A stretch of 35,619 nucleotides of DNA, from the IMG/VR virus record IMGVR_UViG_3300033154_000599, positions 1 to 35,619 of that record; one strand, given 5' to 3'. Position 1 is the stretch's first letter, and each line of letters begins with the position of its first letter. This document shows, piece after piece, positions 329-28,301 of this stretch. The notes beneath the pieces are model-generated. The model was given only the letters and a program-made list of their open reading frames with translations, had not been told where the DNA came from and ran no database searches. A program made the position numbers and the translations under genes. Origin of the DNA: a virus.

Positions 329-610
329 TTAGCGGTCGATAGTTATGGCGATTCTTAAATTAGGATCGAATAGTAAAAAATCGAATAATTCGGATTTGTT
401 CATTCCATGACTAGTTGGTCTATTCAATGCTGTTTGACTTGGGGTATGGCCCATTATAGCTGCTAATTCGACATTGCCTTCGGGCAAGCCGTTTTTCATA
501 GCTTGTTTTATTTTTTGAACTTCTACGTCTAAGCCCATATCGACGGCAACAGTGATATTTTTAGTGTCGTCGTCACTAATTTTTCTTTGTTGGGGCGCTG
601 TATATTCCAT
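329..610 (-). CDS. Hypothetical protein, MEYTAPQ start
   Basis: A 93-residue protein on the minus strand. It begins MEYTAPQ, the same seven residues as the plus-strand protein at 3828, while MEPTSPQ opens the minus-strand protein ending at 28279. The middle (residues about 25-60) has the feel of a short helical domain and the C terminus is hydrophobic. There is no clear ribosome-binding site upstream. It is divergent from the gene at 678, with a 67-bp gap between them. No family was recognised. Confidence 0.55.
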   Translation of the reverse strand: MEYTAPQQRKISDDDTKNITVAVDMGLDVEVQKIKQAMKNGLPEGNVELAAIMGHTPSQTALNRPTSHGMNKSELFDFLLFDPNLRIAITIDR

Positions 611-3812: not shown

Positions 3813-3824
3813 TACCAAAAATAA
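3813..3824 (+). promoter_or_regulatory. 12-mer TACCAAAAATAA before a start codon
   Basis: The 12-mer ends 3 bases before the ATG at 3828, which has no ribosome-binding site. The identical 12-mer ends 6 bases before the ATG at 28308. It may be a promoter for a nearly leaderless message or an SD-independent initiation signal. Confidence 0.35.
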
Positions 3825-3827
3825 CCC

Positions 3828-4121
3828 ATGGAATACACTGCCCCGCAAATTAGAGCGTTAGTAGAGTGGTTGTTAACGGACGATGAAATATTGTCTGAAG
3901 CATGGTTTGGTTCTAAAAAACCATTAGGACCATTAGCTTCAAAAGTTGTTGAATTATCAAAGAAAAGAGGATGGAGTAAAGCTAAACTCAAAGCTCTTGA
4001 GAAGAAATTAGGCGGATTTGATGAAAAATCGCCGATGGGGAAAAATGTGTTGCAGTCGGCTTTGGTGAACCTAAAATTAGGTAGTTTTGCTGCTTTAGCT
4101 AAAGCGAAAGAGAAACGTTAA
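3828..4121 (+). CDS. Basic protein with capsid-targeting-like leader
   Basis: A 97-residue protein. Residues 1-24 match the leader shared with the proteins at 4123, 17045 and the minus-strand protein ending at 24083: helix-like ALVEWLLTDDEILSE followed by A. LSE-A fits the T4 prohead-protease consensus of hydrophobic-x-Glu before the cut. The rest is strongly basic (KKRGWSKAKLKALEKK and a C-terminal AKAKEKR), as expected of a DNA-associated internal head protein. No ribosome-binding site is visible; a TACCAAAAATAA box directly precedes the start. The gene at 4123 follows after 1 bp. The internal-head role is inference. Confidence 0.7.
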   Translation: MEYTAPQIRALVEWLLTDDEILSEAWFGSKKPLGPLASKVVELSKKRGWSKAKLKALEKKLGGFDEKSPMGKNVLQSALVNLKLGSFAALAKAKEKR

Positions 4122-4122
4122 G

Positions 4123-4428
4123 ATGCTCCGTCCAGAAGATATTAAACAAATTGCAGAGTTATTAACCGATGATCCAGATGTGTTTGTAGAAGAAGAATTA
4201 ACGTCACAAGCACGAAAAGATCTTTCTCCTAAAAGTTTTGTATTTCCTCCAACCAAAGAAGACCCAAACGGCCATTATCCGATCCATGATGAATCGCATA
4301 AAAATAACGCTAAATCAAGAGTTGCTCAGCTTTCTGGCCAATCTTCGTGGATGAAAAAACGCGGGTTATCAGTTGCCGAAGTTAAGCGTCGAGTTTATGC
4401 TGCTGTTGGTAAACCAGAAGATGATTAA
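4123..4428 (+). CDS. Leader-bearing small protein with DUF6582-like body
   Basis: The 101-residue product opens with the shared leader (IKQIAELLTDDPDVFVE, ending at residue 23), followed by EEL. The body (about 38-95) has FVFPPTKEDPNGHYPIHDES, then NAKSRVAQL, a helix and VAEVKRRVYAAVGK. This resembles the short domain with a FxFP...YPIHDxxHxxNAxxRV pattern found at the ends of phage prohead proteases and related proteins. It follows the basic leader protein after 1 bp, so the two are probably co-expressed head-internal proteins. Confidence 0.68.
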   Translation: MLRPEDIKQIAELLTDDPDVFVEEELTSQARKDLSPKSFVFPPTKEDPNGHYPIHDESHKNNAKSRVAQLSGQSSWMKKRGLSVAEVKRRVYAAVGKPEDD

Positions 4429-11724: not shown

Positions 11725-13860
11725 ATGTTAGATATTGAATCAATTGAGTTGCGTAATTTTCTTTCTTATGGTGATTATATCACTAAGTTAAAAGTTTCTA
11801 AGCAAGGTCCGACTTTAGTTCTTGGAAAAATTGAGGATGATGAGGATTCGACCTCTTCTAATGGTGCAGGCAAAAGCAGTTTGTTAACCGCTTTTATTTG
11901 GTGTTTATTCGGACGAACAATTATTAATGCTAATCCGGGCGACAAAGTTATCAACTTTTTTATTGGTAGTACCTGTTATGTTAAAATCAAAACTTCGGAC
12001 GGTTGGGAAATTATTAGGACTAGGGATTGCAACAGCCATTCTGAGCTTGTACTTTTAAAAGACGGCGATGATGAAACTAAATCTACCAACACTAACGCCC
12101 AAAAGAAGCTTAATGAACTTTTTGGATTGGATTATGAAATTTTCACATCTAGCATTTTTTGTGGCCAATTTGGAAAACCGTTCTTAGAAATGGTCTCTGT
12201 TAAGCGCAAGGAAGCTATCGAGCGCCTTCTTGGTCTCGATAAATTAAATGGTTATGCTGATTCTGCCAAATATCGGTCTAAAGAAGCTGAAACAGATCAA
12301 GAAAACATTCGGAGTAGTGTTGATGTTCTTAAATCTAGTGGTGAGCAATATCAGGAACAAATTCAAGAAAACCTGACTAGTGAAGTAGAATTTGATTTAA
12401 ACCGAAAAACTAGGATCGATGGATTGTCAACCAATATTGTTGAGGTGCAAGAGAAAATTAAGAACGCTCCGATCCATGATATTGAAAAACTTGGAAATCG
12501 TTGGGCATCTTGTAATGAGGTTGTTTCTAAGATTAATGAATATCACGATCAAATCGAGGAAAGCAATAATCGAATTGTTATTTTAGAAGGAGCAACATCT
12601 CGGGCTCAATCCACATTGAAACGATATTCAGAATGGAAACCGGAGGCAGAACCTAATCTTGAGCAAATTAAAACCCAGCTTGCTTTAGCTCAGAAAGCTG
12701 AGGATAAAATGTCTCAGCTTTCTGACAAATCAATTGACATTAAAACAGAAATTCAGCGTCAACAAATTGAAGTTAATGCTCTCCTTGAAGTTATTCAGAA
12801 TTGGGGAGATCAGGTTAATTCAAATTGTACATCTTGTTTGCAAGAGATTGGTGTTGAACATGCGTCTAAGCAAATTGATGAATGTGAACAGAAAATTGGA
12901 TCAGCTGAAAAATTTATTTTTCTAAAAGAACAACAAAAATCGAAAGTGGACGAAATTGTTGAACGTCTTAAGCTTGTGAAGAAACCAGACATAACGGCTA
13001 CCCAAGCTCAAGCAGTAATCAAGAGCAACAATCTTATTCAGGGTGAAATAAGCAATTATCAATCTGTTATCCAAGAATCGAAGGAGGAATGTCTTAAATT
13101 AGTTGAATCTAATAATAAATTGGTAGCTGTTGTTCAATTAGTCACTGAAAGACTTGAAAAATTAGCTCCCGACATTACTTTAGATGAAGCTCAAGCGGAA
13201 ATGAAAGACCGTGTTCATTTGTGTTCTCAAGAACATCAATTAAAGAATCAGATTGAAGAACTTCGTGTTTCTAAAAACCCTTATGCTTACTTGATCGAAA
13301 ATCTCAAAGAATTGTTAAAGACTAATCAGAAAAAATTAAAAGATTTTGACGATAAACTGGAGAATTTGGATACGCTTTTTAAACATTATCGTTATATTTA
13401 TCGTTCTTATTCAGATCGTCGGAAGATTAAGAAATGGTTGATGGCTGAGCTTATTCCTTATTTAAACAATCGTGTTCATTACTATTTAGATAAATTCGAT
13501 GTTAATGTTAATATTAAGTTTACTTCGACTTTAGATGTTGAATCTGATAAATGGAGTTATGAATTCTGTTCTGGTGGAGAGAGAAAGCGAATTGATCTCT
13601 CCATCATGTTTGGTCTTTACGATCTTTATACTTCTATTTATGGTCGCCAGTGTAATATTATGGTTTTAGATGAGGTTGATAGCAGACTAGATGAACATGG
13701 GGTCGAAGCGTTTTCAGATGTTGTTCATGATTTGACTGCTAGTTCTGGATCCCCAGATACCATATATGTGATTTCGCATAAGAGGGAGTTAGAATCGGTC
13801 TTTCCTAATCAGATAGTAATTAGGAAGAGGAATATGTTCTCTGTAGTTGATCAAACATAA
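11725..13860 (+). CDS. sbcC: SbcC/gp46-like recombination ATPase subunit
   Basis: ATG follows GGAGAG. The 711-residue product has the Rad50-type layout. The N-terminal half ATPase has SNGAGKSS (45-52). Long coiled coils follow on either side of a zinc hook CTSC (368-371). The C-terminal half has signature CSGGERKR (about 614-621) and Walker B IMVLDEVDS (about 646-654). It is the ATPase partner of the gp47-like nuclease encoded immediately upstream. Length is above T4 gp46 and within the short phage range of the family. Confidence 0.93.
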   Translation: MLDIESIELRNFLSYGDYITKLKVSKQGPTLVLGKIEDDEDSTSSNGAGKSSLLTAFIWCLFGRTIINANPGDKVINFFIGSTCYVKIKTSDGWEIIRTRDCNSHSELVLLKDGDDETKSTNTNAQKKLNELFGLDYEIFTSSIFCGQFGKPFLEMVSVKRKEAIERLLGLDKLNGYADSAKYRSKEAETDQENIRSSVDVLKSSGEQYQEQIQENLTSEVEFDLNRKTRIDGLSTNIVEVQEKIKNAPIHDIEKLGNRWASCNEVVSKINEYHDQIEESNNRIVILEGATSRAQSTLKRYSEWKPEAEPNLEQIKTQLALAQKAEDKMSQLSDKSIDIKTEIQRQQIEVNALLEVIQNWGDQVNSNCTSCLQEIGVEHASKQIDECEQKIGSAEKFIFLKEQQKSKVDEIVERLKLVKKPDITATQAQAVIKSNNLIQGEISNYQSVIQESKEECLKLVESNNKLVAVVQLVTERLEKLAPDITLDEAQAEMKDRVHLCSQEHQLKNQIEELRVSKNPYAYLIENLKELLKTNQKKLKDFDDKLENLDTLFKHYRYIYRSYSDRRKIKKWLMAELIPYLNNRVHYYLDKFDVNVNIKFTSTLDVESDKWSYEFCSGGERKRIDLSIMFGLYDLYTSIYGRQCNIMVLDEVDSRLDEHGVEAFSDVVHDLTASSGSPDTIYVISHKRELESVFPNQIVIRKRNMFSVVDQT

Positions 13861-14396: not shown

Positions 14397-15401
14397 GATG
14401 TCAAGCGCAGTAGCTTGTTGCCTAATTAATTTTATTACTTTTGAAACCTCGTTTTTTGAAATTCCGAGATATTTTGCAATATGAATTTCTTTAGGACGAA
14501 CTTCTTTCTTACGCTTGGGATAGTACGTGTCTAGGAAATCCTGCGGCGGATTTATAAGCACTTGAAGGATTTCTTGTGCTCTGTCGGGCAATCGCGATGA
14601 TAGAACCCTGATTGAATCTTGTACTAAAATATTATCCATATCAACCTCCTTTGGTTTGCGAGCACGATATTCACAATGCTGCAAATAGTTATTGTCGTCG
14701 TCGTCATCACAAATCCCAAAAATTGATCTGGATTTTATTGGAACCTTTTCTGAAACTTTTAAAGAATAAGAATTTATTCCATCAGGGATGATAGTTATAT
14801 CAGCATCCGTTATCAGAATTTTTATTCCGGATTCCTTAATTTCATCACGTAGAGCCCAAACCTTTTTCATGATGGGAACTGGAATTAGGTTTATATCAGC
14901 TGTAAACCTGCTCCGACCATCACTCAACTCATCGAATTCATAATGAATCTTTTTGGTGTTGTTGTCTAAGTAAAGTTGGATTGCCTCGTTAGCGACCATT
15001 TGTGCTTCGCCTTCTAGGGTCCGTTTTACTCGCTGGGTTGGGATCTTATTTTCCGATAGGATCTGTTTCATATAATTCATGATGCAAGTTTTAAAATACT
15101 TCATGCGTGCATCAGGGTTTTCCACGACTTTAGGTCGAGGATTATGATAGAGTACATCGACAGCAGTACGCCAAATGGTGATTTGAACTTCAGCCATGGC
15201 GAACTCCTTGTTCTTGTACTCATTACCGATTGTAGCGTCTAAAATTTGGCAGAACTTATGTTTTGCATTATCTAGTCGAGTATCGGTGAAGACTATGTCC
15301 ATTAAATGGTTCACAGTCTGAAGTTGTTCTCCAGTCAAATTTGCTGCAGTAACATTCATTAAACTTCCACGAAGGAAGAGCTTTGCTAGTTGACCACTCA
15401 T
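14391..15401 (-). CDS. Sigma-factor-like transcription factor
   Basis: The minus-strand ATG at 15401 follows AAGGAGC. The 336-residue product has a region around 100-130 (ARMKYFKTCIMNYMKQILSE) recalling the helical region 2 of phage sigma factors. An acidic linker (CDDDDDNN) follows, then a C-terminal segment like sigma region 4: DSIRVLSSRLPDRAQEILQV, then EIHIAKYLGISKNEVSKVIK as a helix-turn-helix. It is divergent from the gp55-like gene, so one may regulate the other. It could be an early or middle sigma factor, or another DNA-binding regulator; the fold is inferred by motif only. Confidence 0.6.
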   Translation of the reverse strand: MSGQLAKLFLRGSLMNVTAANLTGEQLQTVNHLMDIVFTDTRLDNAKHKFCQILDATIGNEYKNKEFAMAEVQITIWRTAVDVLYHNPRPKVVENPDARMKYFKTCIMNYMKQILSENKIPTQRVKRTLEGEAQMVANEAIQLYLDNNTKKIHYEFDELSDGRSRFTADINLIPVPIMKKVWALRDEIKESGIKILITDADITIIPDGINSYSLKVSEKVPIKSRSIFGICDDDDDNNYLQHCEYRARKPKEVDMDNILVQDSIRVLSSRLPDRAQEILQVLINPPQDFLDTYYPKRKKEVRPKEIHIAKYLGISKNEVSKVIKLIRQQATALDIS

Positions 15402-15477
15402 CTTTTGCTCCTTTTGCTTTTTTGATTAATTGGTTTGCTAAGTGTATGTATTTTATTTGTGAGGTTTTTATACTTTT
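15402..15477. promoter_or_regulatory. Divergent promoter region between sigma-like genes
   Basis: This 76-bp AT-rich gap separates the two divergently transcribed sigma-like genes. The plus strand carries GAGG and a TATACTT-like box before the ATG at 15478. The minus strand carries TATAAAAAC and AATAAAATAC and the AAGGAGC ribosome-binding site. Both promoters must lie here or overlap the gene starts. Exact boxes are uncertain. Confidence 0.4.
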
Positions 15478-15981
15478 ATGAAGAAGAAGAAAAATTATGT
15501 TGACTCTAAGGAAATTGAACTTTGCTGGGCTAATTGGCTTGCTAATGAAGATGCTTACTCTTGGGATAAACTTCAGGGATTTGTCTACAAAATCTGTAAA
15601 GGTGTTGTAGTTCATTTTAACCCCAAAAATGAAGAAGAGCATATGGATCTTTGCCACGAGACATTTGTTTTGACCATGGATAAAATCAAAAACCGCAAGT
15701 TGGTGTTCAAAGCTGGTCGTGCCCCAGTGTTCAATTTACTGACCACTACTATCTTCCGACATCTATATTCTCTCAAGAATAAAGAAAATAGGCGGCGCAA
15801 ATTATTAAAAACCAAGCTTTTACTTAAACCTGGTGTATTAGATGGTTTAGTAGCTGCGGCGGGAATTGATGGAGCTGTAGGAGGATACCATCCAGATGCT
15901 AGTCGCATGAAATCACAACTCCTCTCACAGCTTGACGAACCCAAAACGCCCAGTGATGCTTTTATTAGAACATCTGAGTAA
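15478..15981 (+). CDS. gp55-like late sigma factor
   Basis: The 167-residue product has the size and helical pattern of T4 gp55-type late sigma factors: LCWANWLANEDAYSWDKLQ, then an acidic EEEHMDLCHETFVLTMDKI, then KLVFKAGRAPVFNLLTTTIF and RHLYSLKNKENRRRK. The block matches sigma region 2 (helices 2.1-2.2, then the -10-recognition part). T4 gp55 directs RNA polymerase to TATAAATA late promoters, and similar boxes occur in this window. No region 4 is visible, as in gp55. The family match is by pattern rather than close identity. Confidence 0.68.
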   Translation: MKKKKNYVDSKEIELCWANWLANEDAYSWDKLQGFVYKICKGVVVHFNPKNEEEHMDLCHETFVLTMDKIKNRKLVFKAGRAPVFNLLTTTIFRHLYSLKNKENRRRKLLKTKLLLKPGVLDGLVAAAGIDGAVGGYHPDASRMKSQLLSQLDEPKTPSDAFIRTSE

Positions 15982-16003
15982 AGTTCTGTCAAGATTTATC
16001 ATG

Positions 16004-16012
16004 CTTAAATAC
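16004..16012 (+). promoter_or_regulatory. Candidate late-promoter motif CTTAAATAC
   Basis: CTTAAATAC followed by ATTTAGAATG lies 36 bases upstream of the ATG at 16048. The region at 27053 has a similar string (GATAAATATATTTTAGAATG). Both resemble a T4-type late box. Motif evidence only. Confidence 0.35.
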
Positions 16013-16047
16013 ATTTAGAATGTTTCAAATGTATAGTAGGCCCAAAT

Positions 16048-17031
16048 ATGAGTTCCAAATACAGACTTACTCCTAAACCAGGTATTATCAAAGCAGGGAG
16101 GACTGTTAAAACACCCGTTCGCCCTACTATCATACCCACTAACGCTCCACATATCATTAAAATATCTGATAGGCCACCTAAAATACCCCCGGAGCAACAA
16201 CCACAAAAAGTATTGATTCAAAGGAAAATAAGTTCCCCAATACCTCAATCCAATCCAAGACGCAGGACTAATCCCCGCCCTGGTGCCCGCGCTCAAGCAT
16301 CAGTTTACCGATCTTCGCCCCTAAGAAATCAAAAAGAAGCGCAAATGGGGCTTTATCGGAAAAAGGTAGAAAACCTAAAAGATTGCGGAGTAGGTCGGTA
16401 TTTGGTTATGGTTGCATGTGGGCCATCTATTTTAGAAGTTCCGTTAGAGGATCTCAAAGGGCACAATAAAATTGATTTAATGTCCATCAACAAACCAGAT
16501 TCTAGAATACATCCTACTAGGTACTGGGTTTTTTGTGATCAATCTCAATATACACGTAATAAGACGTTGTTTGAAAATTATGAGGGAGTTGTTATTAACG
16601 CTTGGTCTGTTCGTGCTAGGCATAAGAATCAGATCTTAATCAAGAACCGTTCAGGGAAAGGTTTTTCTAAGAACTTACTCCAAGGTTACTTTATCGGGCG
16701 ATCTACGACGTTTGCTAATATGCAGTTAGCCCTCTGGATGAATTATGAAAAAGTCTTCATCTTTGGATGTGACATGTGTAAGCCCCCCAATGCTCAGAGC
16801 CTTCATTTTTATGGGGTAAACCAAGATGTAGATCCTAAAATTAGAGTTACGCGGTTTCAAAAAGAAGCGGATCATTATGAAATCGGGGCTAAACAAATGA
16901 ATGTCCTTGAAAGGAAAAAATTTGTTTTTTGCTCGGCATATAACCCGTGGGCATTTGTAAATAAATTAGAAAAAATGGACCATCGTGGTGCTGTAGAACA
17001 TATTCTTAATTTAGCAAACGAACAAAAATAA
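16048..17031 (+). CDS. DUF115/MptE-like protein with disordered N terminus
   Basis: ATG follows AGTAGG by 6 bases. Residues 1 to about 110 are Pro/Arg-rich and probably disordered. Residues about 115-310 form a globular domain: YLVMVACGPSILEVPLEDL, IDLMSINKPD, YWVFCDQ, then GRSTTFANMQLALWMNYEKV and FIFGCDMCKP. The CGPS motif near the first strand, the mid-domain Asn-rich turn and a late GCD match the DUF115/MptE-like nucleotide-sugar or pterin-diphosphate-transferase fold. Such proteins act in glycan transfer or cofactor synthesis. Here it could modify a glycan, a virion protein or a base, but no substrate is apparent. Confidence 0.5.
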   Translation: MSSKYRLTPKPGIIKAGRTVKTPVRPTIIPTNAPHIIKISDRPPKIPPEQQPQKVLIQRKISSPIPQSNPRRRTNPRPGARAQASVYRSSPLRNQKEAQMGLYRKKVENLKDCGVGRYLVMVACGPSILEVPLEDLKGHNKIDLMSINKPDSRIHPTRYWVFCDQSQYTRNKTLFENYEGVVINAWSVRARHKNQILIKNRSGKGFSKNLLQGYFIGRSTTFANMQLALWMNYEKVFIFGCDMCKPPNAQSLHFYGVNQDVDPKIRVTRFQKEADHYEIGAKQMNVLERKKFVFCSAYNPWAFVNKLEKMDHRGAVEHILNLANEQK

Positions 17032-17044
17032 TTAGAGGGCTATC

Positions 17045-17335
17045 ATGACTGTCAATAAAGACCAAATTAATCAAGTTGCTAAGATGCTTACTGACGATCC
17101 GGACATTTTTAGTGAAGCCAAAGCCAAAGAGCCGAGCAATGTACCCGACGACCTAGAAGTTGATGATGAGTTTGAAGTTCACGATGGTTATGAAGAACGT
17201 TCTGAGCCTGCTGAGCCTGGTAGCCAACATCGAAGTTCTAGTTTGCAGGACGGCCCGGATGGGGCTAAACAAACCGGATCTGCTTATCTTAAAGAAGATG
17301 AAAGAAATGAAGAAGTAATCATCTTCGAAGACTAA
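17045..17335 (+). CDS. Acidic protein with capsid-targeting-like leader
   Basis: ATG follows AGAGGG. The 96-residue product opens with the shared leader, residues 1-24: INQVAKMLTDDPDIFSE, with A at the next position. The remainder is acidic and low-complexity (DDLEVDDEFEVHDGYEERSE and a final VIIFED). After removal of the leader it would be a small acidic internal head peptide. It lies between the DUF115-like gene and the nucleotide-metabolism run. Confidence 0.65.
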   Translation: MTVNKDQINQVAKMLTDDPDIFSEAKAKEPSNVPDDLEVDDEFEVHDGYEERSEPAEPGSQHRSSSLQDGPDGAKQTGSAYLKEDERNEEVIIFED

Positions 17336-17362
17336 GAGTATTTTATTCATAAGAGGTGTCTT

Positions 17363-18007
17363 ATGGGTTTGTTAACCGGAACTTCGGTTTATCTCGTTGG
17401 TGCGATTGATCATGCTAGTGATCCACACAAATGGCGTCGAGAGTTAACCAATAATTTGTTACATCCATTGGGGGTTAAAGTTTACGATCCTCTTGTCAAA
17501 CCATCATGGCTTGACGAGGTTTATCCACACATCGAGGATGATGTTGTTTCGGATTTTTTGGTTTTTAAGCGTCTTCTTGGAGAGCCTGGGTCCATTCCTG
17601 AAGAGCAGCATGAAATGGTTTGGGATCGGATGCATGGTATTCGAGAATTGTGTTTGCGTTACGCGCACGATTGTAGCTTTATGATCGTAAACCTTCCCAA
17701 ACAATTCACTATAGGTACTTTAGAGGAAATCGGAGTTGCGGCTGATGCTGGGAAGCCTGTTTTCTTTGTACTTCCTGACGGACCTACGACATCTACGTGG
17801 TTTCCGCCTCAGGTATATGATCGGTTGGAAGAATTCCATGAATACGCATTTAGTTCTATGGAAGAATTATCTAATCATCTTCGGGCGATCGATTCTGGAG
17901 ATGTAGCCGTAGATAGGTTGAGATGGGTTTTTCTACATTATTTTTCAGATAGGAATGTAATCAATGAGTTTTCAAATCGCGAACCAATTGGAAGTCAATC
18001 TTCTTAA
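17363..18007 (+). CDS. Nucleoside 2-deoxyribosyltransferase-like enzyme
   Basis: ATG follows AAGAGGTG. The 214-residue product has the nucleoside 2-deoxyribosyltransferase pattern: TSVYLVGAIDHASDPHKWRR, VYDPLVKP, then CSFMIVNLPKQ and a late GTLEEIGVAADAGKPVFFVL. The GTLEE Glu fits the position of the catalytic nucleophile. Such enzymes exchange or hydrolyse bases on deoxynucleosides and salvage nucleotides. It overlaps the DeoC-like gene by 44 bp and opens the nucleotide-metabolism run that includes purZ. Confidence 0.72.
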   Translation: MGLLTGTSVYLVGAIDHASDPHKWRRELTNNLLHPLGVKVYDPLVKPSWLDEVYPHIEDDVVSDFLVFKRLLGEPGSIPEEQHEMVWDRMHGIRELCLRYAHDCSFMIVNLPKQFTIGTLEEIGVAADAGKPVFFVLPDGPTTSTWFPPQVYDRLEEFHEYAFSSMEELSNHLRAIDSGDVAVDRLRWVFLHYFSDRNVINEFSNREPIGSQSS

Positions 18008-18713
18008 TTCTAATACTAAGCCTGAGTATGTTTCTGAGTTTGTATTAAAAAATCGGATCCCTACGATTGTAGCATATCCTGAGTATATTGCCCCATTAGT
18101 AGCTCATAGAGCTATCCGCAATGGTCCGTACAAAATAATTTGTGCTATCGACTTCCCAGCAGGATCCAATTTTGCGATGGACAAGATTTTCCGATCTAAT
18201 CCTGATTTTGTCGGGGCAGATGGGTTCGATTTCCTACTATCCACGAATCGGACTGATATTGAACTTTATAACGAGATGATGGCTATTTATCGATTTATTA
18301 AAGGCAATCGTCCTATGTCTCAAATCAGGTGGGTATTAAAATTGCATACGCGCAAATCGCAAGGTTTAAGTGCACTTAAACACATGAAGAAAGCGCCGCC
18401 TGCTTTTGTTCGTCTCAATTCTGAACTAGAAATACCTAACCTAGGTGTTACGAAACATCGGGAGTATATTAAACTTGCGAGGAAACAGACTCCTTATCCG
18501 ATTAAGGTATGTGGAAATGTTGATCTGACCCTCATTGAAAAATTGGCTAACGAGGCAAATGTTAAGCGGTTTGATGTGTCATTGGATCAGGCTGAAGCGA
18601 TCATTCGTGAACTTTCAAATAGGTCAGCGGTTCCAAGGACAACTCCAACAGCTCCACAACCTCAAGGACCAGCGGTGAAGAAGGTGGGTAATGTTGGAAG
18701 GATTAGGATCTAA
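17964..18713 (+). CDS. DeoC-like aldolase, catalytic Lys missing
   Basis: ATG follows AGGAATG inside the previous gene. The 249-residue product aligns by pattern with deoxyribose-phosphate aldolase: IVAYPEYIAPLVAHRAI, CAIDFPAGSN, FVGADGFDFLLS, IRWVLKL, then FVRLNSELEI and PIKVCGNVD. The GADxxD aspartate and the late Lys (IKVCG, for GFKPAGG in the E. coli enzyme) are kept. The Schiff-base Lys in FIKTSTG is Arg in FVRLNSE. It may be a degenerate or altered aldolase acting on deoxyribose phosphates. The C-terminal tail is Pro-rich. Confidence 0.55.
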   Translation: MSFQIANQLEVNLLNSNTKPEYVSEFVLKNRIPTIVAYPEYIAPLVAHRAIRNGPYKIICAIDFPAGSNFAMDKIFRSNPDFVGADGFDFLLSTNRTDIELYNEMMAIYRFIKGNRPMSQIRWVLKLHTRKSQGLSALKHMKKAPPAFVRLNSELEIPNLGVTKHREYIKLARKQTPYPIKVCGNVDLTLIEKLANEANVKRFDVSLDQAEAIIRELSNRSAVPRTTPTAPQPQGPAVKKVGNVGRIRI

Positions 18714-19173
18714 AGTCATTTCTTGGGACAGCTATTTTTTACAAATGGCCGAGTTGGTTTCTACAAGATCTAAAGATCAAAATACTCATATTGGCGCAGT
18801 AATTGTAGGCCCGGATAAAGAGGTTAGATCTACGGGATATAATTCATTTCCTAGAGGATTGAATGATTTCCTGCCTGAGCGTCAGGAACGACCTGAAAAG
18901 TATAGTTGGATGGAACATGCCGAACGCAATGCTATTTATAATGCTGCTAGGCATGGCGCCGCTCTTAAAGGGTGTACTATGCATCTTAATTGTCATATTC
19001 CATGTACCGGTTGTGCTCGTGCTATTATTCAATCTGGTATTGCGGAAGTGGTACTTGGCAAACCTAAGAATCATTCTCAAAAATGGATTGAAGAAGCAAC
19101 AAAATCTGAACAAATGTTTAGAGAAGCAAGAATTAAGGTTCGTTTACCTAACTCTCAGGATTTAATATTATAA
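18691..19173 (+). CDS. dCMP deaminase
   Basis: ATG follows AAGGTGG and overlaps the DeoC-like gene by 23 bp. The 160-residue product has the zinc-dependent cytidine/deoxycytidylate deaminase motifs HAERNAI (H76, E78) and PCTGCARAII (C105, C108). It deaminates dCMP to dUMP, feeding thymidylate synthesis; a base-modification role is also possible. It sits in the run with nucleoside deoxyribosyltransferase-like and purZ genes. Confidence 0.9.
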   Translation: MLEGLGSKVISWDSYFLQMAELVSTRSKDQNTHIGAVIVGPDKEVRSTGYNSFPRGLNDFLPERQERPEKYSWMEHAERNAIYNAARHGAALKGCTMHLNCHIPCTGCARAIIQSGIAEVVLGKPKNHSQKWIEEATKSEQMFREARIKVRLPNSQDLIL

Positions 19174-19424
19174 TGGTGCACTCCTTTCATATTATTAAAG
19201 AAATTTGCTTAGATCATCAGATTGATGTTACATTAATGCATGGGTCTAATTTAGAGCATGTTTCTTTTTTTATGAAACGAGAACCATATAATACTAAGAT
19301 ATATGGTTTATGTAATGGTGCAAAAGTCACTTTTGATGTTAAAAATCGTCGAGAATATGATTTAGCAAATCCGGATAGTATTTCACAAATGAGTGAGTAT
19401 TTGTCCTCCACGATCTGGATATGA
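19173..19424 (+). CDS. Hypothetical protein, 83 aa
   Basis: Starts in a TAATG overlap with dCMP deaminase and ends in an ATGA overlap with the exonuclease gene. The 83-residue product is mixed alpha/beta (SFHIIKEICLDHQIDVTLMH) with no recognised motif. It is translationally coupled on both sides, so it probably takes part in the same pathway. Confidence 0.6.
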   Translation: MVHSFHIIKEICLDHQIDVTLMHGSNLEHVSFFMKREPYNTKIYGLCNGAKVTFDVKNRREYDLANPDSISQMSEYLSSTIWI

Positions 19425-20218
19425 TAATAATTGGTGTTGACGCCGAAACTAACGGTTTCAAAAACGAAAAAGATGAGTATGACGAAGAACGCAGTGAACT
19501 GTGTGAAATCGGAGCATGTCTTTTTCATGTTGAGTCTAAAACTGTTCTAGCCCAATTCGGTAAGATCTATCGAATTCATAACTGGGGCGAAGAAGCGGCC
19601 GAGGTTCATCAAATCCCCAAAGAACTTAGTGATTTGATGCCATATGTTCCTCCACAAGAGGAAGAAAATCCTTTTAAGCTTATTAGTGGTAATATGGCTA
19701 GATTTGTGGTAGCTCATAATGCTCCACATGATTATCCTTATTTTGCTAAGTTGTGGCCGGATTTTTTGAGTATTCCTTGGTTGTGTACTCAAAGAGATTT
19801 ACCTCATAATGATAAGTTAAGGCGTCCAGCTTATTCGAAAAGGTTAGGGCATCTTTGTGTTGATTATGGGATTCAATTTAGCGGATGGCATCGTGCTTTA
19901 GTTGATGCAGAAGCATGTGCTCGTATTGCATCTTTCCATGATCTTGAAGCAGCTTATGAGGAGAAATTAAAGTCTAAATTTCGGCTAGTTACCTATGGTG
20001 AATTTATTAAAGACATTAATAAAGAAACTATGTCTCAAATTCCTTCAGTGCTTGAAGATGATAGGAGATATCGTTGGAACACCAATGAGTGTCCAAGGGC
20101 TTGGTCTAAGGATTACCTGCCAGAAGAATTTATTGAACCAGACGTGCGGTATATCAAAGAGATAACAGGTGACCGCTGGAAGTTCGAAATTGAACCTATG
20201 CCACCTAAAACTTACTAG
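19421..20218 (+). CDS. DEDDh-family 3'-5' exonuclease (DnaQ-like)
   Basis: ATGA overlap with the previous gene. The 265-residue product has the DnaQ/RNase T catalytic set: D7 and E9 in GVDAETN, D104 in HNAPHD (99-104), and H157/D162 in HRALVDAEA. The first about 175 residues form the nuclease; the C-terminal part is unmatched. It degrades DNA or RNA from the 3' end and could proofread a separate polymerase. It lies 10 bp upstream of purZ, so a link to Z-DNA replication is possible but unproven. Confidence 0.85.
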   Translation: MIIIGVDAETNGFKNEKDEYDEERSELCEIGACLFHVESKTVLAQFGKIYRIHNWGEEAAEVHQIPKELSDLMPYVPPQEEENPFKLISGNMARFVVAHNAPHDYPYFAKLWPDFLSIPWLCTQRDLPHNDKLRRPAYSKRLGHLCVDYGIQFSGWHRALVDAEACARIASFHDLEAAYEEKLKSKFRLVTYGEFIKDINKETMSQIPSVLEDDRRYRWNTNECPRAWSKDYLPEEFIEPDVRYIKEITGDRWKFEIEPMPPKTY

Positions 20219-20228
20219 GAGATGATAA

Positions 20229-21335
20229 ATGAAATTAGGCAAGTTTAATGTAGTAGTTGATGGGCAATGGGGCAGTTGTGGCAAGGGTTTAATTGCTGGA
20301 TACTTGGGTCAGCGTTATGGGGTAGAAGCAGCTAGTACTAATAATCTCCCTAATGCTGGACACACTGTTGTCTTAGAAGACGAAACGCGTTTCATTTCTA
20401 AAATTTTGCCCGTTACTAGCTATCTTAATACCCAGGAACAGCATGTTCAGTCCTACATCGGGGCGGGTGCCGGGTTCTTCCTAGAACAACTCTTTAAGGA
20501 GATGAAGGAATGTGGAGTTGCTCCTGAGGATGTTAGGATCCATCCACGAGCTATGGTAGTTACTGAAGAACATGCGGCCATGGAACGAGGAGCCCGAGGT
20601 ACCAAGCATATTGCTAGTACCATGCAAGGTTCAGGGGCGGTCCGTGCAGAGAAAATCATGCGGGGAGCTAACGTTAAACTGGCCCGTGATTTTCTTGAAT
20701 TAAGATCGATGATCACTGAAGATTGGATTTTTGAAGTTAACGGAAAGCTCCCCGGGACGATGTGGTTACATGAAGGTAGCCAAGGATTCAGTTTAGGAAT
20801 GAACCACGGAAGCCATTATCCGCAATGTACCTCCAGAGAATGTACTACAACTCGTGAGTTAATGGATATGGGTCTCCCGCCCGATAGTGTTGGGGATGTT
20901 TATTTAGTAGTCCGTCCATTCCCGATTCGGGTTGGAAATGTCATTGAAAATGGGCAAGAGGTTGGTTATTCGGGCGATGCTTATCCTGGTCAGGAAGAAA
21001 TGACCTGGGCTCAAATTAAGGAATTTGCCAACTATCCAGCGGATTTTGACCTACATGAGATGACCACGGTTACTAAGCGTCTAAGGAGAGTATTTAGTTT
21101 CTCAATGGATCAAGCTCTCCGTGCTTCGATAGTAAATGGAGCAACTAAAATTGCTCTTAATTTTGCTAACTATCTAGACTATTCATGTTTCCAAACTAAG
21201 GGGACGGATATTACCGAACTTCCAACTAAGGTTCGAGCATTTATCGATTCAATCGAAAGTTCGCTCAATCTTCCAGTCACTATCGTTGGTACAGGGCCAG
21301 CAGTGGACCATGTTTGGAATCTTGATAACGATTAA
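20229..21335 (+). CDS. purZ: PurZ, 2-aminoadenylosuccinate synthetase
   Basis: ATG follows AGGAG. The 368-residue protein belongs to the adenylosuccinate synthetase superfamily but is shorter than bacterial PurA (about 430). The N terminus reads VVVDGQWGSCGKGLIAGYLG; in PurA the loop is GDEGKGK and its Asp is the catalytic base acting on IMP. Here it is S16, the substitution described for the phage enzymes of S-2L and phiVC8 that condense dGMP with aspartate. NNLPNAGHT (38-46) keeps the catalytic His45. The PurA guanine-recognition TKxD is replaced by LNFANYLD (310-317), consistent with ATP rather than GTP use. I infer synthesis of the 2-aminoadenine (Z) precursor. The gene is downstream of the deoxynucleotide genes. 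Confidence 0.88.
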   Translation: MKLGKFNVVVDGQWGSCGKGLIAGYLGQRYGVEAASTNNLPNAGHTVVLEDETRFISKILPVTSYLNTQEQHVQSYIGAGAGFFLEQLFKEMKECGVAPEDVRIHPRAMVVTEEHAAMERGARGTKHIASTMQGSGAVRAEKIMRGANVKLARDFLELRSMITEDWIFEVNGKLPGTMWLHEGSQGFSLGMNHGSHYPQCTSRECTTTRELMDMGLPPDSVGDVYLVVRPFPIRVGNVIENGQEVGYSGDAYPGQEEMTWAQIKEFANYPADFDLHEMTTVTKRLRRVFSFSMDQALRASIVNGATKIALNFANYLDYSCFQTKGTDITELPTKVRAFIDSIESSLNLPVTIVGTGPAVDHVWNLDND

Positions 21336-21627
21336 GGAACCTAAGAAGCATTCCGATCCTAAGGTTATAAACGAAGTGCATCTTACGGATCGTGAGAGGA
21401 ATATTATTGCGCAAAGGGCTGCTGGTTCTTACGCGATTGTCCCCCAATTACAGAAGATAATCATCGATCATCGGAAGAACAAGTCCATCAAGGATATGCC
21501 GTTTTTAGAGTTTGGCCGTCTAGTAGTGAAGAAATCGTGGGATAGGGATGAATATGAGCGGTTACAACGAGCTGTCCTCAGTATCATCCCTCACCCTTTC
21601 GGAATCCCGTTTCATCTTAGAAGATGA
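21310..21627 (+). CDS. Hypothetical protein overlapping purZ
   Basis: ATG at 21310 lies within the last codons of purZ (26-bp overlap), a TTG at 21286 being the alternative. The product of about 105 residues is basic and mixed helical (VINEVHLTDRERNIIAQRAA, VVKKSWDRDEYERLQRAVLS). No family was recognised. The overlap implies co-translation with purZ. Confidence 0.55.
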   Translation: MFGILITIKEPKKHSDPKVINEVHLTDRERNIIAQRAAGSYAIVPQLQKIIIDHRKNKSIKDMPFLEFGRLVVKKSWDRDEYERLQRAVLSIIPHPFGIPFHLRR

Positions 21628-21648
21628 TAAGTAAGGAATTAGTGTAGT

Positions 21649-21885
21649 ATGGAAAACGCAGTATGTGAAGGCGCATATTATCGCCATTATAAGGGTGGGC
21701 TTTATATGGTTAAACACATCGGGATCAATAGCGAGACGTTGCAGAAATTGGTTGTGTACCAGGATGCTGGCGGTGGAGAAATATGGATTAGACCGATGGA
21801 CATGTTTTTGTCTACGGTTAAGGTCGGAGGAATTGAAGTTCCAAGATTTAAACTTCAAGCACCGTCGAGGAAAGAAGGTCATTAA
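21649..21885 (+). CDS. DUF1653 protein
   Basis: The 78-residue product matches the DUF1653 family: YRHYKGGLYMVKHIGINSET, LQKLVVYQD, GEIWIRPMDMFLSTV. The family is small, widespread in bacteria and phages, and of unknown biochemistry. Its stop (TAA) is directly followed by the ATG of the next gene. Confidence 0.85.
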   Translation: MENAVCEGAYYRHYKGGLYMVKHIGINSETLQKLVVYQDAGGGEIWIRPMDMFLSTVKVGGIEVPRFKLQAPSRKEGH

Positions 21886-22098
21886 ATGAGAGATTGCCAA
21901 ATTTGCGACTGTGAGTTGCGAAATAGAAAATGGAACCCCAATACTGGTGTATGTGGATTTTGTAGCCGCATTTATGTTGATTCCAGGTGCGCTGAAAATA
22001 ATCTCGATGTAGCGGTTAAGGGTTTGTCGAGGTTACTCCCTAGTTCCCCCAATAGCACGTCACCGGGTTCTAATGCTGGCCTTGTTTTCTTTGGGTGA
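21886..22098 (+). CDS. Small zinc-ribbon-like protein, 70 aa
   Basis: Starts immediately after the DUF1653 stop codon. Cysteines at CQICDC and CGFC are spaced like a small zinc ribbon; the rest is Ser/Pro-rich with no motif. It is probably coupled to DUF1653. An 83-bp AT-rich gap with the glnA ribosome-binding site follows. Confidence 0.6.
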   Translation: MRDCQICDCELRNRKWNPNTGVCGFCSRIYVDSRCAENNLDVAVKGLSRLLPSSPNSTSPGSNAGLVFFG

Positions 22099-22181
22099 GT
22101 CAAACGCCATTGATGGTTTGTTGTGGATTATTAATAACGGAATCCGTGAGTATTTAATAAAATTTTAAGGAATGATAAAAT

Positions 22182-23249
22182 ATGAACTCGTTGGCTGAAT
22201 ATATCTGGATTGATGGAACTGAACCTGTTGCGCGTTTAAGGTCTAAAACTAAGGTTTTAGACTTGCTTGACTTTCCCTCAAGGCTCGCTCGAATAGAGGC
22301 CCTTGGGCAGAATCCTAATTTGGAATTGATCCCCGTTTGGGGTTTTGATGGGTCTAGTACTAATCAAGCTGATGGTTCGACGTCTGATTGTATTCTTAAA
22401 CCGGCATGTGTAGTCCCTGATCCAACCAGAAACCCTGCACGTGATGTTTTGGTTATGTGCGAGGTTTTAAGTGCAGATTTAACCCCTGATAAGAATAACC
22501 ACCGTTCTAGGACTGCAGAGCTAGCTGGGCATCTCGCTTCTGAAGAAATGCTTTTTGGAATTGAACAAGAATACACCTTCTTTAAAGGCCGAACACCCCT
22601 TGGGTGGCCTGAGGGGGGTTATCCTGCTCCACAAGGTCCTTTTTATTGTGGTATTGGTGCAGACGAAGTTTTTGGGCGCGATATTGTTGAGGAGCATCTT
22701 GGGGCATGTGTTACCGCTGGCCTTCGAATCTCGGGGATTAATGCCGAAGTTATGCCAGGACAATGGGAGTTCCAGATTGGCCCCGCTGGTCCGTTAGAAG
22801 TAGGCGATCATCTTTGGTTAGCTAGATATCTTCTCTATCGAATTGCTGAGAAGCATAATGTTAATGTTAAATTAGATCCTAAACCGATTGGTGGGGATTG
22901 GAATGGTGCTGGTGCTCATACCAATTTTTCTACTTTAAAAATGAGGAGTGAAGGTGGGTTGGCTGTATGTATCGAGGCTGCTGAAGCTTTAAGGCGATCT
23001 TTTGAGAGAGATGGTTTTCCAAAAGAATACGGTCATGGTTATGAATCTCGCTTGACGGGTGCTCATGAAACTTGTTCTTATCGAGAATTCAAGTATGGTG
23101 TGGGGGATCGAACCGCTTCAGTTCGGATTCCTCTTCACGTTGAAGTTAAGGGTTTTGGATATATTGAAGATCGTCGCCCGTGCGCTAATATTGACCCGTA
23201 TCAAGTCGTGTCGTTTTTAGCAAAAACTGTTTGGCGGGCGGGCGATTGA
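22182..23249 (+). CDS. glnA: Glutamine synthetase, type II
   Basis: ATG follows TAAGGAATG. The 355-residue product is a complete GSII, matching the eukaryotic/rhizobial/planctomycete type rather than bacterial GSI. It has WGFDGSST (53-60), FGIEQEYTF (125-133, metal-binding Glu), INAEVMPGQWEFQ, GDWNGAGAHTNFSTLKMR, DRTASVRIP and YIEDRRPCANIDPY. It joins ammonia and glutamate using ATP. Glutamine feeds purine synthesis, including GMP made by GuaA, so the gene could enlarge the dGMP pool used by PurZ. GSII in a phage is rare. Its end overlaps the convergent iscU by 49 bp. Confidence 0.93.
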   Translation: MNSLAEYIWIDGTEPVARLRSKTKVLDLLDFPSRLARIEALGQNPNLELIPVWGFDGSSTNQADGSTSDCILKPACVVPDPTRNPARDVLVMCEVLSADLTPDKNNHRSRTAELAGHLASEEMLFGIEQEYTFFKGRTPLGWPEGGYPAPQGPFYCGIGADEVFGRDIVEEHLGACVTAGLRISGINAEVMPGQWEFQIGPAGPLEVGDHLWLARYLLYRIAEKHNVNVKLDPKPIGGDWNGAGAHTNFSTLKMRSEGGLAVCIEAAEALRRSFERDGFPKEYGHGYESRLTGAHETCSYREFKYGVGDRTASVRIPLHVEVKGFGYIEDRRPCANIDPYQVVSFLAKTVWRAGD

Positions 23250-23620
23250 GATTTCTGTTGATAATCCTTAATTGCAGCTTTGATCGCATCTTCAACTAAG
23301 ACCGAACAATGAATCTTGACCGGAGGCAATGAGAGTTCCTCTACAATACATGTATTCTTAATTGTAAGAGCCTCCTCTACTGTTTTGCCCTGGATCCATT
23401 CGGTAGCTAAAGATGATGACGCAATGGCCGAGCCACAACCAAAGGTTTTGAATTTAGCTGTTTCAATTACTCCCTCCACAACTTTTATTTGTAAACGCAT
23501 TACATCTCCACATTCAGGAGCACCTACAACCCCGGTTCCTACTTTGGGATCGTTTTTATCTAACGTCCCGACGTTGCGCGGATTATTGAAATGGTCGATT
23601 ACTTTTTTACTATAAGGCAT
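23201..23620 (-). CDS. iscU: IscU/NifU-N iron-sulfur scaffold
   Basis: The 139-residue product has all ligands of IscU: C37 and D39 in PECGD, C62 in FGCGSAIASSS, and C105 in LPPVKIHCSVL. Length matches IscU with a short C-terminal extension. It assembles 2Fe-2S clusters on a scaffold for delivery to apoproteins. No cysteine desulfurase or chaperone is nearby, so it must use host IscS and HscAB. It is the second gene of a minus-strand pair; the upstream gene (23610-24083) overlaps it by 11 bp. The 3' end overlaps glnA. Confidence 0.93.
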   Translation of the reverse strand: MPYSKKVIDHFNNPRNVGTLDKNDPKVGTGVVGAPECGDVMRLQIKVVEGVIETAKFKTFGCGSAIASSSLATEWIQGKTVEEALTIKNTCIVEELSLPPVKIHCSVLVEDAIKAAIKDYQQKSQSPARQTVFAKNDTT

Positions 23621-24083
23621 TACTACCTGATTGAGGAACTTGTTGTTGAGGAACTTGCTGTCTTTGGGCTAACATTGTCTTAACTACGTCGTCTAGTGGT
23701 TTAGCAAATCGTTCAAAATCTTTAGATCGTTTAACAAATTCTAATGCTTTAGGCCAATGTTTAGCTATTGTGTCTCCATGTTGGACTAAAAATTTTGCGA
23801 TCATTTTGCTATTTTTACCCAGATATTTAGCAGATTTACCTACTATATCACCCACAACTGGCAGCATTGATAATAGCGACATGGCTGCTTGGAAATACTC
23901 GCCTTGTTTTATATGGAGTAAAGCGTTGGCAGCGTCTGCTGCTTCGGCACCTGGGATTAGCCCAACGATGTCTAATACCGTGTTTAATGCTGTGGCCTCA
24001 GGAAGAAGAATCTTTTCAGAGAAAATATCTGGATCATCGGTAATAAATTCCGCAATTTGTTTAACATCTTCTGATCGGATCAT
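23610..24083 (-). CDS. Leader-bearing protein with pretoxin-like body
   Basis: The 157-residue minus-strand product starts with the shared leader, residues 1-23: VKQIAEFITDDPDIFSE. Residues about 30-75 hold two hydrophobic helices of the form TVLDIVGLIPGAEAADAANA and AAMSLLSMLPVVGDIVGK. This is like the VGLIPG...AANA...MLPVVGD arrangement in pretoxin (PT-TG) regions of polymorphic toxins. A helical part and a Gln-rich QQVPQQQVPQ tail follow. No toxin catalytic motif is seen. A prohead-packaged, injected protein is the likeliest reading. Expressed with IscU, whose ATG overlaps its stop. Confidence 0.7.
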   Translation of the reverse strand: MIRSEDVKQIAEFITDDPDIFSEKILLPEATALNTVLDIVGLIPGAEAADAANALLHIKQGEYFQAAMSLLSMLPVVGDIVGKSAKYLGKNSKMIAKFLVQHGDTIAKHWPKALEFVKRSKDFERFAKPLDDVVKTMLAQRQQVPQQQVPQSGSNAL

Positions 24084-24170
24084 AATTTTCTTTCTATACT
24101 ATTTGTACTACGTTAAATCCCATGATTTACTTTTGATGTGTGTAGATAAATATATAATAATGAGGTAAAT
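24084..24170. promoter_or_regulatory. Divergent promoter region with GATAAATATA
   Basis: This gap lies between the minus-strand leader protein and the plus-strand gene at 24171. The plus strand has GATAAATATA at 24145-24154, the best T4-like late box of the window, 17 bases before the ATG, and the GAGG ribosome-binding site. The structural genes run downstream. A box for the minus strand is not obvious. Confidence 0.45.
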
Positions 24171-24365
24171 ATGAGTCCGCTTACTTTAGAGCGAATTAAG
24201 AAAGCTGATAGCGTTCGGATCCACCCTATTAATGAATCTGGTCTTGTTAAATACACCGTTCAAATTATGGAAAGCGGTGTGTGGAATACGGTCTTAACTG
24301 ATTTTAATAGGAGTATTTGTGAACAGGTTGTTAGGAAAGCTACTAGTAAAGTTATTCTTGGGTAG
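24171..24365 (+). CDS. Hypothetical protein, 64 aa
   Basis: ATG follows GAGG. The product is a small basic alpha/beta domain (ADSVRIHPINESGLVKYTVQ and SICEQVVRKA). It is the first gene after a late-promoter candidate. No family was recognised. Confidence 0.6.
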   Translation: MSPLTLERIKKADSVRIHPINESGLVKYTVQIMESGVWNTVLTDFNRSICEQVVRKATSKVILG

Positions 24366-24368
24366 TTG

Positions 24369-24851
24369 ATGAATAACCGGAGGATAGATATCCCGGTCGA
24401 GCTTTATAGTCAAATTCATCAACTGATGCCGATAATTTGTGTTGATACTGTTGTATATGCAGATAATAAAATCTTTTTAGTTAGTCGTGCTAATGAACCT
24501 GAACAGGGCCAATGGTGGTTTCCTGGTGGCCGTGTTTTAAGAAATGAACGGCTAAGCCGTGCTTCCCAGAGAATTGTTAAGAATGAAGCCGGGATTGATA
24601 TCAGTCGTGTTAAATATCTTGGGCACGATGAGACCATGTTTAATACAGATCCGTTTGGGCATGGGCAAGGCACACATACTGTCAACTTTGTGTTTACAGC
24701 GAACGTTTCTGAATTAGCTTTATTTCATGTTATATTAGATAATCACCATACTGCATATTCGACGTTCAGTTTTGAAGAGATTTACTGTAGTGATATGCAT
24801 CCGTATGTTAAAAGATTTACAGCTTTAGCTGAAGGAGTTTTTCGCCAATAG
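24369..24851 (+). CDS. Nudix hydrolase, GDP-mannose mannosyl hydrolase-like
   Basis: ATG at 24369 is preferred to the in-frame TTG three bases earlier. The 160-residue product has QWWFPGGRVLRNERLSRASQ then RIVKNEAGI (residues 48-76). This matches the altered Nudix box of GDP-mannose mannosyl hydrolase (Gmm), GGRVxKDExLxxAFxRLTxxELG, more closely than the standard GX5EX7REUXEEXGU. The enzyme class hydrolyses nucleoside diphosphates linked to another group. In a Z-DNA phage a dGTP- or dATP-trimming function is conceivable but only speculation. Confidence 0.78.
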   Translation: MNNRRIDIPVELYSQIHQLMPIICVDTVVYADNKIFLVSRANEPEQGQWWFPGGRVLRNERLSRASQRIVKNEAGIDISRVKYLGHDETMFNTDPFGHGQGTHTVNFVFTANVSELALFHVILDNHHTAYSTFSFEEIYCSDMHPYVKRFTALAEGVFRQ

Positions 24852-27935: not shown

Positions 27936-28279
27936 TAATTTGGGTCTGGTTCTTCGTAATCTGAGTATTTGTATTCTACTAGAGCTAACCAACAGGGCAT
28001 GTTAAAACGTTCATCGTGCCATTTCTGTAACGTTGCTTTATCACCGTCGGCTTTGCTTGCCCATTCGTTAGCTACGGATTTTTCCCAAAAACGTGCGGCC
28101 ACTGTGGCCATTGCACCAAAACCGAAATAAGTATTAGAGGCTCTGTCTGTAGAAAAGACATCCCAACCTTCCATGTCTTTAGCTTGTTTTAAAGCGGAAG
28201 AGATTTTATATTGGATTAATGAGGGGGAGTCGAATTCGCCCTCTGCTAATAAACGACGTTGTGGCGATGTTGGTTCCAT
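27932..28279 (-). CDS. Hypothetical protein, 115 aa, minus strand
   Basis: A minus-strand gene inside the plus-strand structural block. The 115-residue product starts MEPTSPQ, close to the MEYTAPQ start of the proteins at 329-610 and 3828. Aromatic-rich sequence follows (NTYFGFGAMATVAARFWEKS). There is no clear ribosome-binding site. It is divergent from 28308 over a 28-bp gap. No family was recognised; it looks like an inserted small gene (moron-like). Confidence 0.5.
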   Translation of the reverse strand: MEPTSPQRRLLAEGEFDSPSLIQYKISSALKQAKDMEGWDVFSTDRASNTYFGFGAMATVAARFWEKSVANEWASKADGDKATLQKWHDERFNMPCWLALVEYKYSDYEEPDPNY

Positions 28280-28289
28280 AGGTTATGTT

Positions 28290-28301
28290 TACCAAAAATA
28301 A
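28290..28301 (+). promoter_or_regulatory. Second copy of TACCAAAAATAA
   Basis: This 12-mer is identical to the one at 3813-3824. It ends 6 bases before the ATG at 28308, again with no ribosome-binding site. It lies between divergent genes, which fits a promoter role. Confidence 0.35.

Follow-up and report, generated by a model that had tools for sequence, protein, structure and literature searches.

Two neighbouring plus-strand genes beginning at 3828 and 4123 of an uncultured phage contig raised the question of whether proteins with different bodies carry a common N-terminal leader, and whether such a leader sends them into the phage head. The contig (35,619 nucleotides; hereafter the window) is a 35.6-kb IMG/VR record with T4-like phage genes for a tail sheath, two tail tube proteins, an SbcD-like protein and PhoH. 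A sequence-only reading had proposed that both proteins share a leader, that two further copies lie in the window, and that all belong to a family of packaged proteins cut after hydrophobic-x-Glu as in T4. The tail sheath of the window was encoded at 20 IMG/VR loci with 45-84% identity; the best-ranked isolate match to it, in Listeria phage LIS04, had 41% identity with less than half covered. The closest contig, G001 (185 kb), was collinear with most of the window (G- and L-numbers denote the IMG/VR contigs or loci of relatives that were compared with it).

Leaders in the window

A common N-terminus of 23-24 residues, designated type 1, was found on the proteins starting at 4123 (plus strand; MLRPEDIKQIAELLTDDPDVFVE), 17045 (plus strand; MTVNKDQINQVAKMLTDDPDIFSE) and 24083 (minus strand; MIRSEDVKQIAEFITDDPDIFSE), and the bodies of these proteins were mutually without match. 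When the 24083 protein was compared by blastp with a database of the window and three relatives, it matched the 4123 protein with 60% identity over residues 1-30 (E 2e-7) and the 17045 protein with 50% over 22 residues (E 1e-3). The two further copies had thus been placed correctly according to sequence, HMM and blastp, and the claim of unrelated bodies under a shared start held for all three proteins. The leader occupies 23 codons at 4123..4191 (+), where it begins a 101-residue protein (4123-4428) whose body matched PHROG 16160, of unknown function (E 6e-7). It takes up 24 codons at 17045..17116 (+), the start of an acidic 96-residue protein (17045-17335) whose orthologues in G001, G002 and G004 are likewise type 1, and 23 codons at 24015..24083 (-), the start of a 157-residue protein (23610-24083) for which AlphaFold2, run with two sequences, gave a mean pLDDT of 42.5. 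The P3 residue of the window copies was Phe, neither Leu nor Ile.

The protein at 3828, however, was rejected as a type-1 copy, so that the supposed sharing of a leader by the two neighbours stood for 4123 and failed for 3828. Its leader HMM score among the window ORFs was E 2.4, and it resembled type 1 only in LLTDDEILSE, one residue short. The opening 13 residues, MEYTAPQIRALVE, matched instead the start of the minus-strand protein at 28279, MEPTSPQRRLLAE, and proteins of relatives; the adjacent genes at 3828 and 4123 therefore bear two different leaders. This second kind of leader in the window, designated type 3, lies at 3828..3866 (+) in a 97-residue protein (3828-4121), where ILSE forms a second possible cut ending at 3899, and at 28241..28279 (-) in a 115-residue protein (27932-28279) that had been absent from the earlier list. 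The minus-strand protein at 610 starts with MEYTAPQQR, which matched the 3828 start less completely; this type-3-like start (MEYTAPQQRKISD, 572..610, -) lacks the L-x-Glu and belongs to a 93-residue protein (329-610) with a homologue at G001 70510-70863. In all, type 3 ([ST]xPQRRxLxE and variants) was borne by eight proteins, each time at the first start codon, and had no internal matches.

Leader families and their exchange

Whole-protein searches reached little of this material. Neither the 24083 and 4123 proteins nor the typed 24-residue consensus leader matched INPHARED phages; an IMG/VR scan with the 4123 protein found no relative, and one with the 24083 protein found G001 as the sole relative. 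Two DNA patterns were searched as well. The first returned 51 stretches, mostly chance or unrelated matches, and yielded G013 and G014; the second, built on the type-1 core, returned 50 stretches and found the leader on many more contigs. Six of the latter stretches all came from an unrelated protein of 466 residues that matched internally, and these were excluded from the leader count. The same sheath was detected at 57-64% identity in 7 of the 17 second-pattern contigs searched, the remainder being mostly fragments.

After near-identical cases had been merged, type 1 (consensus [PIV]xxIAxLIT[DE]DPDV[FL]xE) was present at 64 distinct places in IMG/VR relatives, 53 of them N-terminal, 4 C-terminal and 7 internal. 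At least two internal copies would be N-terminal with translation from a later ATG (G002 210358, G016 39000), and those of G019 and G030 are truly internal. The 395-kb contig G014 alone holds 20 type-1 leaders, and G015 has nine places within eight genes of one cluster. The most constant residues were Ala5 (63 of 64), Asp11 (63), Pro12 (63), Thr9 (60) and Asp13 (58). The terminal Glu17 was found in 38/64, and a hydrophobic-x-Glu inside residues 13-30 in 49/64, with Phe at P3 in the window copies. Position 10 was Glu in 44/64; Glu17 was present in 14 of the 20 leaders with Asp10 versus 24 of the 44 with Glu10. Where position 10 is Glu, the I-T-E/D segment within the core is a possible second cut site. 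A 30-codon ORF consisting of hardly more than a type-1 leader, MNPEEIARLITEDPDLNVDIRDNNWWVITV, was observed in five contigs (L218, L235, L239, L242 and L254).

Controls separated the type-1 family from chance. A position matrix placed type 1 in relatives far above shuffled controls, and the leader HMM gave a best E of 2 over five shuffles of 24,113 ORFs, compared with E of 0.01 or lower at 85 real places. Matches to 32 of these leaders, which include the three window copies, hold by construction since the HMM was trained on them; the type-1 places in G015, G016 and G017 and the loci found by pattern lay outside the training set. Segments of T4 and LIS04, with 434 ORFs between them, likewise gave nothing below E 2. 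All synonymous codons were found at the invariant type-1 residues. In G014, for example, codons for the invariant Ala were GCA 7, GCT 6, GCC 4 and GCG 2, and identical residues shared a codon in 0.38 of pairs, against 0.19-0.50 expected per residue from genome usage. The mixed codons indicate selection on the peptide and not recent copying of a DNA cassette.

When N-terminal patterns were counted de novo, type 2, MKLxxLxE, was the most frequent shared start of G001 and, in the form MKLxxIxE, of G013. In 15 contigs, among them two near-duplicate pairs, the pattern stood at 49 of 3664 gene starts and at 7 of 14,263 internal Met residues, showing that it is start-specific. By eye, it resembles the T4 IPII/IPIII start MKTYQEFIAEA. 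Three other shared starts were set aside as paralogues, being borne by clusters of similar small proteins: CRCGH in G002, L..LI..WL in G005 and MHW in G010. The first comprises very small proteins (49845-50209 and clustered at 332270-344527), often with a W[YHFL]S motif, that are probably metal-binding. The second lies at G005 15255-24656 (LxxLIxxWL) and the third at G010 44558-115037 (MHWxxxxTxxQLxDV).

The strongest observation was the exchange between leader types on the same protein. Among 71 homologous leader-bearing pairs, 34 were type 2/2, 30 type 1/1, six type 1/2 and one type 2/3, so that seven pairs from five families differed. The type-2 rule used here was permissive, accepting any Met in the first 60 residues, and the 103 type-2 labels therefore include false ones; the seven mixed pairs were checked by eye. 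The 24083 family carries type 1 in the window, MKLSLLHEA in G001 (body 79% identical) and MKLRAIAED in G017 (44%). A Nudix hydrolase has type 1 in G014 and type 2 in G001, and a small helical-looking family has type 1 in G014 and type 2 in G013 and G015. The remaining exchanges paired type 2 of G017 with type 1 of G024, and type 2 of G002 with type 3 of G001. Because the types replace each other on the same protein, all of them probably serve the same end.

The majority of leader-bearing bodies matched nothing. Those recognised under type 1 were AAA+ (E 4e-16), Nudix (2e-17) and AAA_33 kinase-like (1.5e-13), with weak matches to PRTase-like and PARP/ART-like domains. Type-2 bodies included Nudix, phage lysozyme, GNAT and topoisomerase IB, together with ART-PolyVal at 3e-5, which is below the cut-off; a type-3 body was an Fe/Mn superoxide dismutase (1.5e-35; G014 324527-325195, plus strand). 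Pfam matches below cut-off occurred on many bodies and were disregarded unless named here as weak. The description of the carriers as head-type proteins was thus too narrow, since most of the bodies that could be recognised are enzymes (Nudix, AAA+, kinase-like, PRTase-like, ADP-ribosyltransferase-like). The ADP-ribosyltransferase-like cargo fits packaging, because the packaged Alt protein of T4 is an ADP-ribosyltransferase (PMC9026906). With its ADP-ribosyltransferase-like, Nudix and lysozyme members, the recognisable cargo resembles T4 practice.

Head genes, protease and an upstream element

A Peptidase S77 (gp21 family) gene was found in 5/12, 2/2 and 6/17 records of the relatives searched and in all nine records above 140 kb. 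The suggestion that a gp21-like protease gene should be sought was borne out in this way in the relatives; the 35.6-kb window, a fragment, gave no gp21-family match. The head gene order in relatives was portal, a protein of about 1000 residues, protease, scaffold-like protein and capsid protein, the protease being labelled from Pfam and the portal, scaffold and capsid from position and motifs. The T4 capsid protein gp23 is cut at FLTE/AEIGG. All 13 major capsid proteins read from the relatives had [LI]xE/[DE] just ahead of a conserved TTT..ADFTRF, from which we infer that the capsid protein may be cut at this site. G001 also encodes a second, short gp21-like protein (55810-56220, minus strand). 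In it the FDHPPD and SSRG segments of the protease, which we take to be active-site positions, are altered to LGNPPD and LLPRG, so this short protein is probably inactive.

Type-1 or type-2 genes were located inside, or no more than about 2 kb from, gp20-gp21-gp22-gp23 clusters in several lineages, a count that carries a bias where loci from the two DNA patterns were chosen for holding the motif. In three near-identical contigs a type-1 gene lies immediately ahead of the gp21 protease, and in contig 3300017778_008578 one lies immediately after the capsid gene; in G014 the type-1 gene is 1.6 kb past the capsid gene. Type 2 adjoins the protease in G006 and G010, which are near duplicates, and follows the capsid gene in G013. 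The gap between protease and scaffold of G019 holds an internal type-1 copy and then a type-2 protein, and the same succession follows the protease in G030, where the scaffold falls outside the contig. The T4 core genes 67 and 68 sit between gp20 and gp21. The head clusters of G002 and G008 had no leader gene, and the G001 contig is cut there.

Many leader genes were preceded by TCAAA[CG]ATA, with AAANNTA beginning exactly 11 bases before the start codon. In seven contigs pooled, AAANNTA stood at -11 of 33/79 leader genes compared with 72/2334 others; at each of 15 other offsets it was found at no more than 2 leader genes and 11 others. The pooled figure is a favourable choice, because only the contigs with significant enrichment among eleven tested singly were pooled (the window, G001, G002, G013, G014, G016 and G017). 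Enrichment in G014 reached a Fisher p of 6e-12; G005, G006, G008 and G015, four of the eleven genomes tested, had no significant enrichment. Of six window genes treated as leader-bearing in this test, two had the element, namely AAAAATA at 3817..3823 (+) ahead of gene 3828 and AAACATA at 28284..28290 (-) ahead of gene 27932-28279, and the three window type-1 genes had none. One element is common to different leader types. In G014 the base preceding ATG was T in 31/43 and C in 8/43. The element would be a -10 promoter sequence, with transcription beginning at the A of ATG and giving a leaderless mRNA, and such transcripts are probably late. AAANNTA at -11 was also present at window 13853-13859 and ahead of genes whose window homologues sit in or near the tail cluster.

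Proposed capsid targeting and its alternatives

We consider it likely that the leaders are interchangeable capsid targeting sequences of large uncultured T4-like phages, often removable after hydrophobic-x-Glu. A short amphipathic N-terminal segment would bind the assembling prohead core, so that any protein fused to it would become part of the prohead. The gp21-family protease (Peptidase S77) would then cleave many of these proteins, though not all, after the hydrophobic-x-Glu near the leader end, and the freed cargo would leave the head with the DNA on ejection. At least three leader types (1; 2, MKLxxLxE; 3, [ST]xPQRRxLxE) would do this one job, swapped among homologous cargo. The proposal of a packaged family with a T4-like leader thereby gained support from exchange with a T4-like leader, from the head clusters and from the gp21 protease of relatives, with the amendment that 3828 bears a second leader type.

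Targeting is better supported than cleavage, because Glu ends only 38/64 type-1 leaders. The proposed hydrophobic-x-Glu cut accordingly applies to a part of the family and is not universal. Four C-terminal and at least two internal copies (G019, G030) count against the preferred explanation, as a removable N-terminal leader would make no sense there, and C-terminal copies would need another route. The C-terminal propeptide of T4 Alt (PMC9026906) is a partial precedent.

The T4 leader has affinity for the core and needs no more than its first ten residues, and gp21 cleaves it after L/I-x-E. Targeting depends on residues 4 and 7 and cleavage on residues 8 and 10; an Asp at residue 10, the last position, prevents cleavage and leaves targeting intact (PMC9026906). 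Type 1, with its near-constant IAxLI and DPD core and a terminal Glu that is frequent and not constant, fits such a separation of targeting from cutting. Like T4 IPI, IPII and IPIII and the gp21-cut Alt propeptides, the leaders are short N-terminal segments on proteins with unrelated bodies; they share hydrophobic residues three apart with the T4 leader, and many of them also a hydrophobic-x-Glu end, and the relatives have T4-type head genes with an S77 protease. Type 1, at about 23 residues, exceeds the T4 leaders examined in length and has an invariant DPD core that they lack; this system also has several exchanged leader types, many more proteins per genome and C-terminal copies. Types 1 and 3 had no similarity to T4 MKTYQEFIAEA, and the ORFs of the T4 segment gave no type-1 HMM match; the proposal for type 1 accordingly concerns a function like that of a capsid targeting sequence and not descent from the T4 one.

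Other phages offer looser parallels. For inner-head propeptides of SPN3US and phiKZ, PMC5694885 describes cutting by a gp21-like protease after x-x-Glu and an identical 15-residue N-terminus on two SPN3US paralogues. Those propeptides are mostly much longer, several of more than 100 residues, and it is paralogues that have the N-terminus in common, unlike the unrelated bodies under type 1. The first 30 residues of P1 DarB send a reporter into the head, and the same study found no consensus at the N-termini of Dar proteins (PMC9024508). The DarB signal is similar to the leaders in N-terminal head targeting and differs in having no shared leader family. In the literature on capsid targeting sequences, no title or abstract opening found described such a leader family or leader exchange; relative to T4 descriptions, and within the literature searched in this way, the type-1 and type-3 sequences, the number of leaders, their exchange and C-terminal use appear new. 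Encapsulin cargo-loading peptides are short, stand at either terminus and load unrelated enzymes into a protein shell. They differ in that neither a phage prohead core nor removal by a protease is involved.

Among the alternatives, the one that survives best, although we regard it as unlikely, is that the leader is a docking peptide for another complex (replication, transcription or a cell compartment) that binds wherever it is placed and is never packaged or cut. The C-terminal (4/64) and internal copies and the 26/64 leaders without terminal Glu suit a plain binding motif, as do the many enzymatic bodies; exchange with the T4-like type 2, the gp21/gp23 neighbourhood and the shared -11 element point to the virion, and a docking motif that also targeted the prohead core would merge with capsid targeting. 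It is more improbable still that the leader reaches the prohead and stays as a core-forming, scaffold-like element with incidental Glu sites. The absence of Glu in those same 26/64 and the internal copy in a protein whose gene lies between gp21 and gp22 (G019, G030) are compatible with retention, but a protease is present, and types 2 and 3 end in hydrophobic-x-Glu, an ending built into their search patterns although all eight type-3 leaders were also first recognised by their N-terminal part. Least credible is the spread by recombination of expression cassettes (element, start codon and first codons) with a functionless peptide, for which the clustering of adjacent leader genes in G015 and the element directly upstream might speak, since codons at invariant residues vary as far as genome usage allows, which rejects a recently copied start cassette, C-terminal copies exist, different leader types have the same element and the window type-1 genes are without it.

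Returning to capsid targeting, a wider and tentative reading, which we hold at rather less than even strength, is that the leaders constitute a general packaging code: unrelated, interchangeable address peptides at either protein end would be recognised by one core receptor, would load at least 20 proteins per virion and would be partly co-switched by leaderless late transcripts, making the injected set readable from the genome. Proteins carried and injected by large phages are usually known only via virion proteomics of isolates. Should the leaders prove to be packaging signals, what uncultured phages carry could be listed from sequence, and such a list would here include Nudix, ADP-ribosyltransferase-like, superoxide dismutase, topoisomerase IB, AAA+ and kinase-like proteins. 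The exchanges of leader type would serve as a natural experiment on prohead-core recognition and might supply new short tags for head loading.

Several other window genes were recorded. The gene at 20229-21335 encodes a PurZ-like homologue, for which PurZ was the best NCBIfam match at E 6e-65 without reaching the family cut-off, hinting at modified DNA. The gene at 22182-23249 encodes a homologue of GlnII-type glutamine synthetase that scored slightly under the cut-off. At 23201-23620 (-) lies a gene for the iron-sulfur scaffold IscU, which scored above the cut-off; its ORF overlaps the end of leader gene 23610-24083. The two tail tube genes (33372-33899 and 33921-34451) are adjacent, diverged members of the gp19 family.
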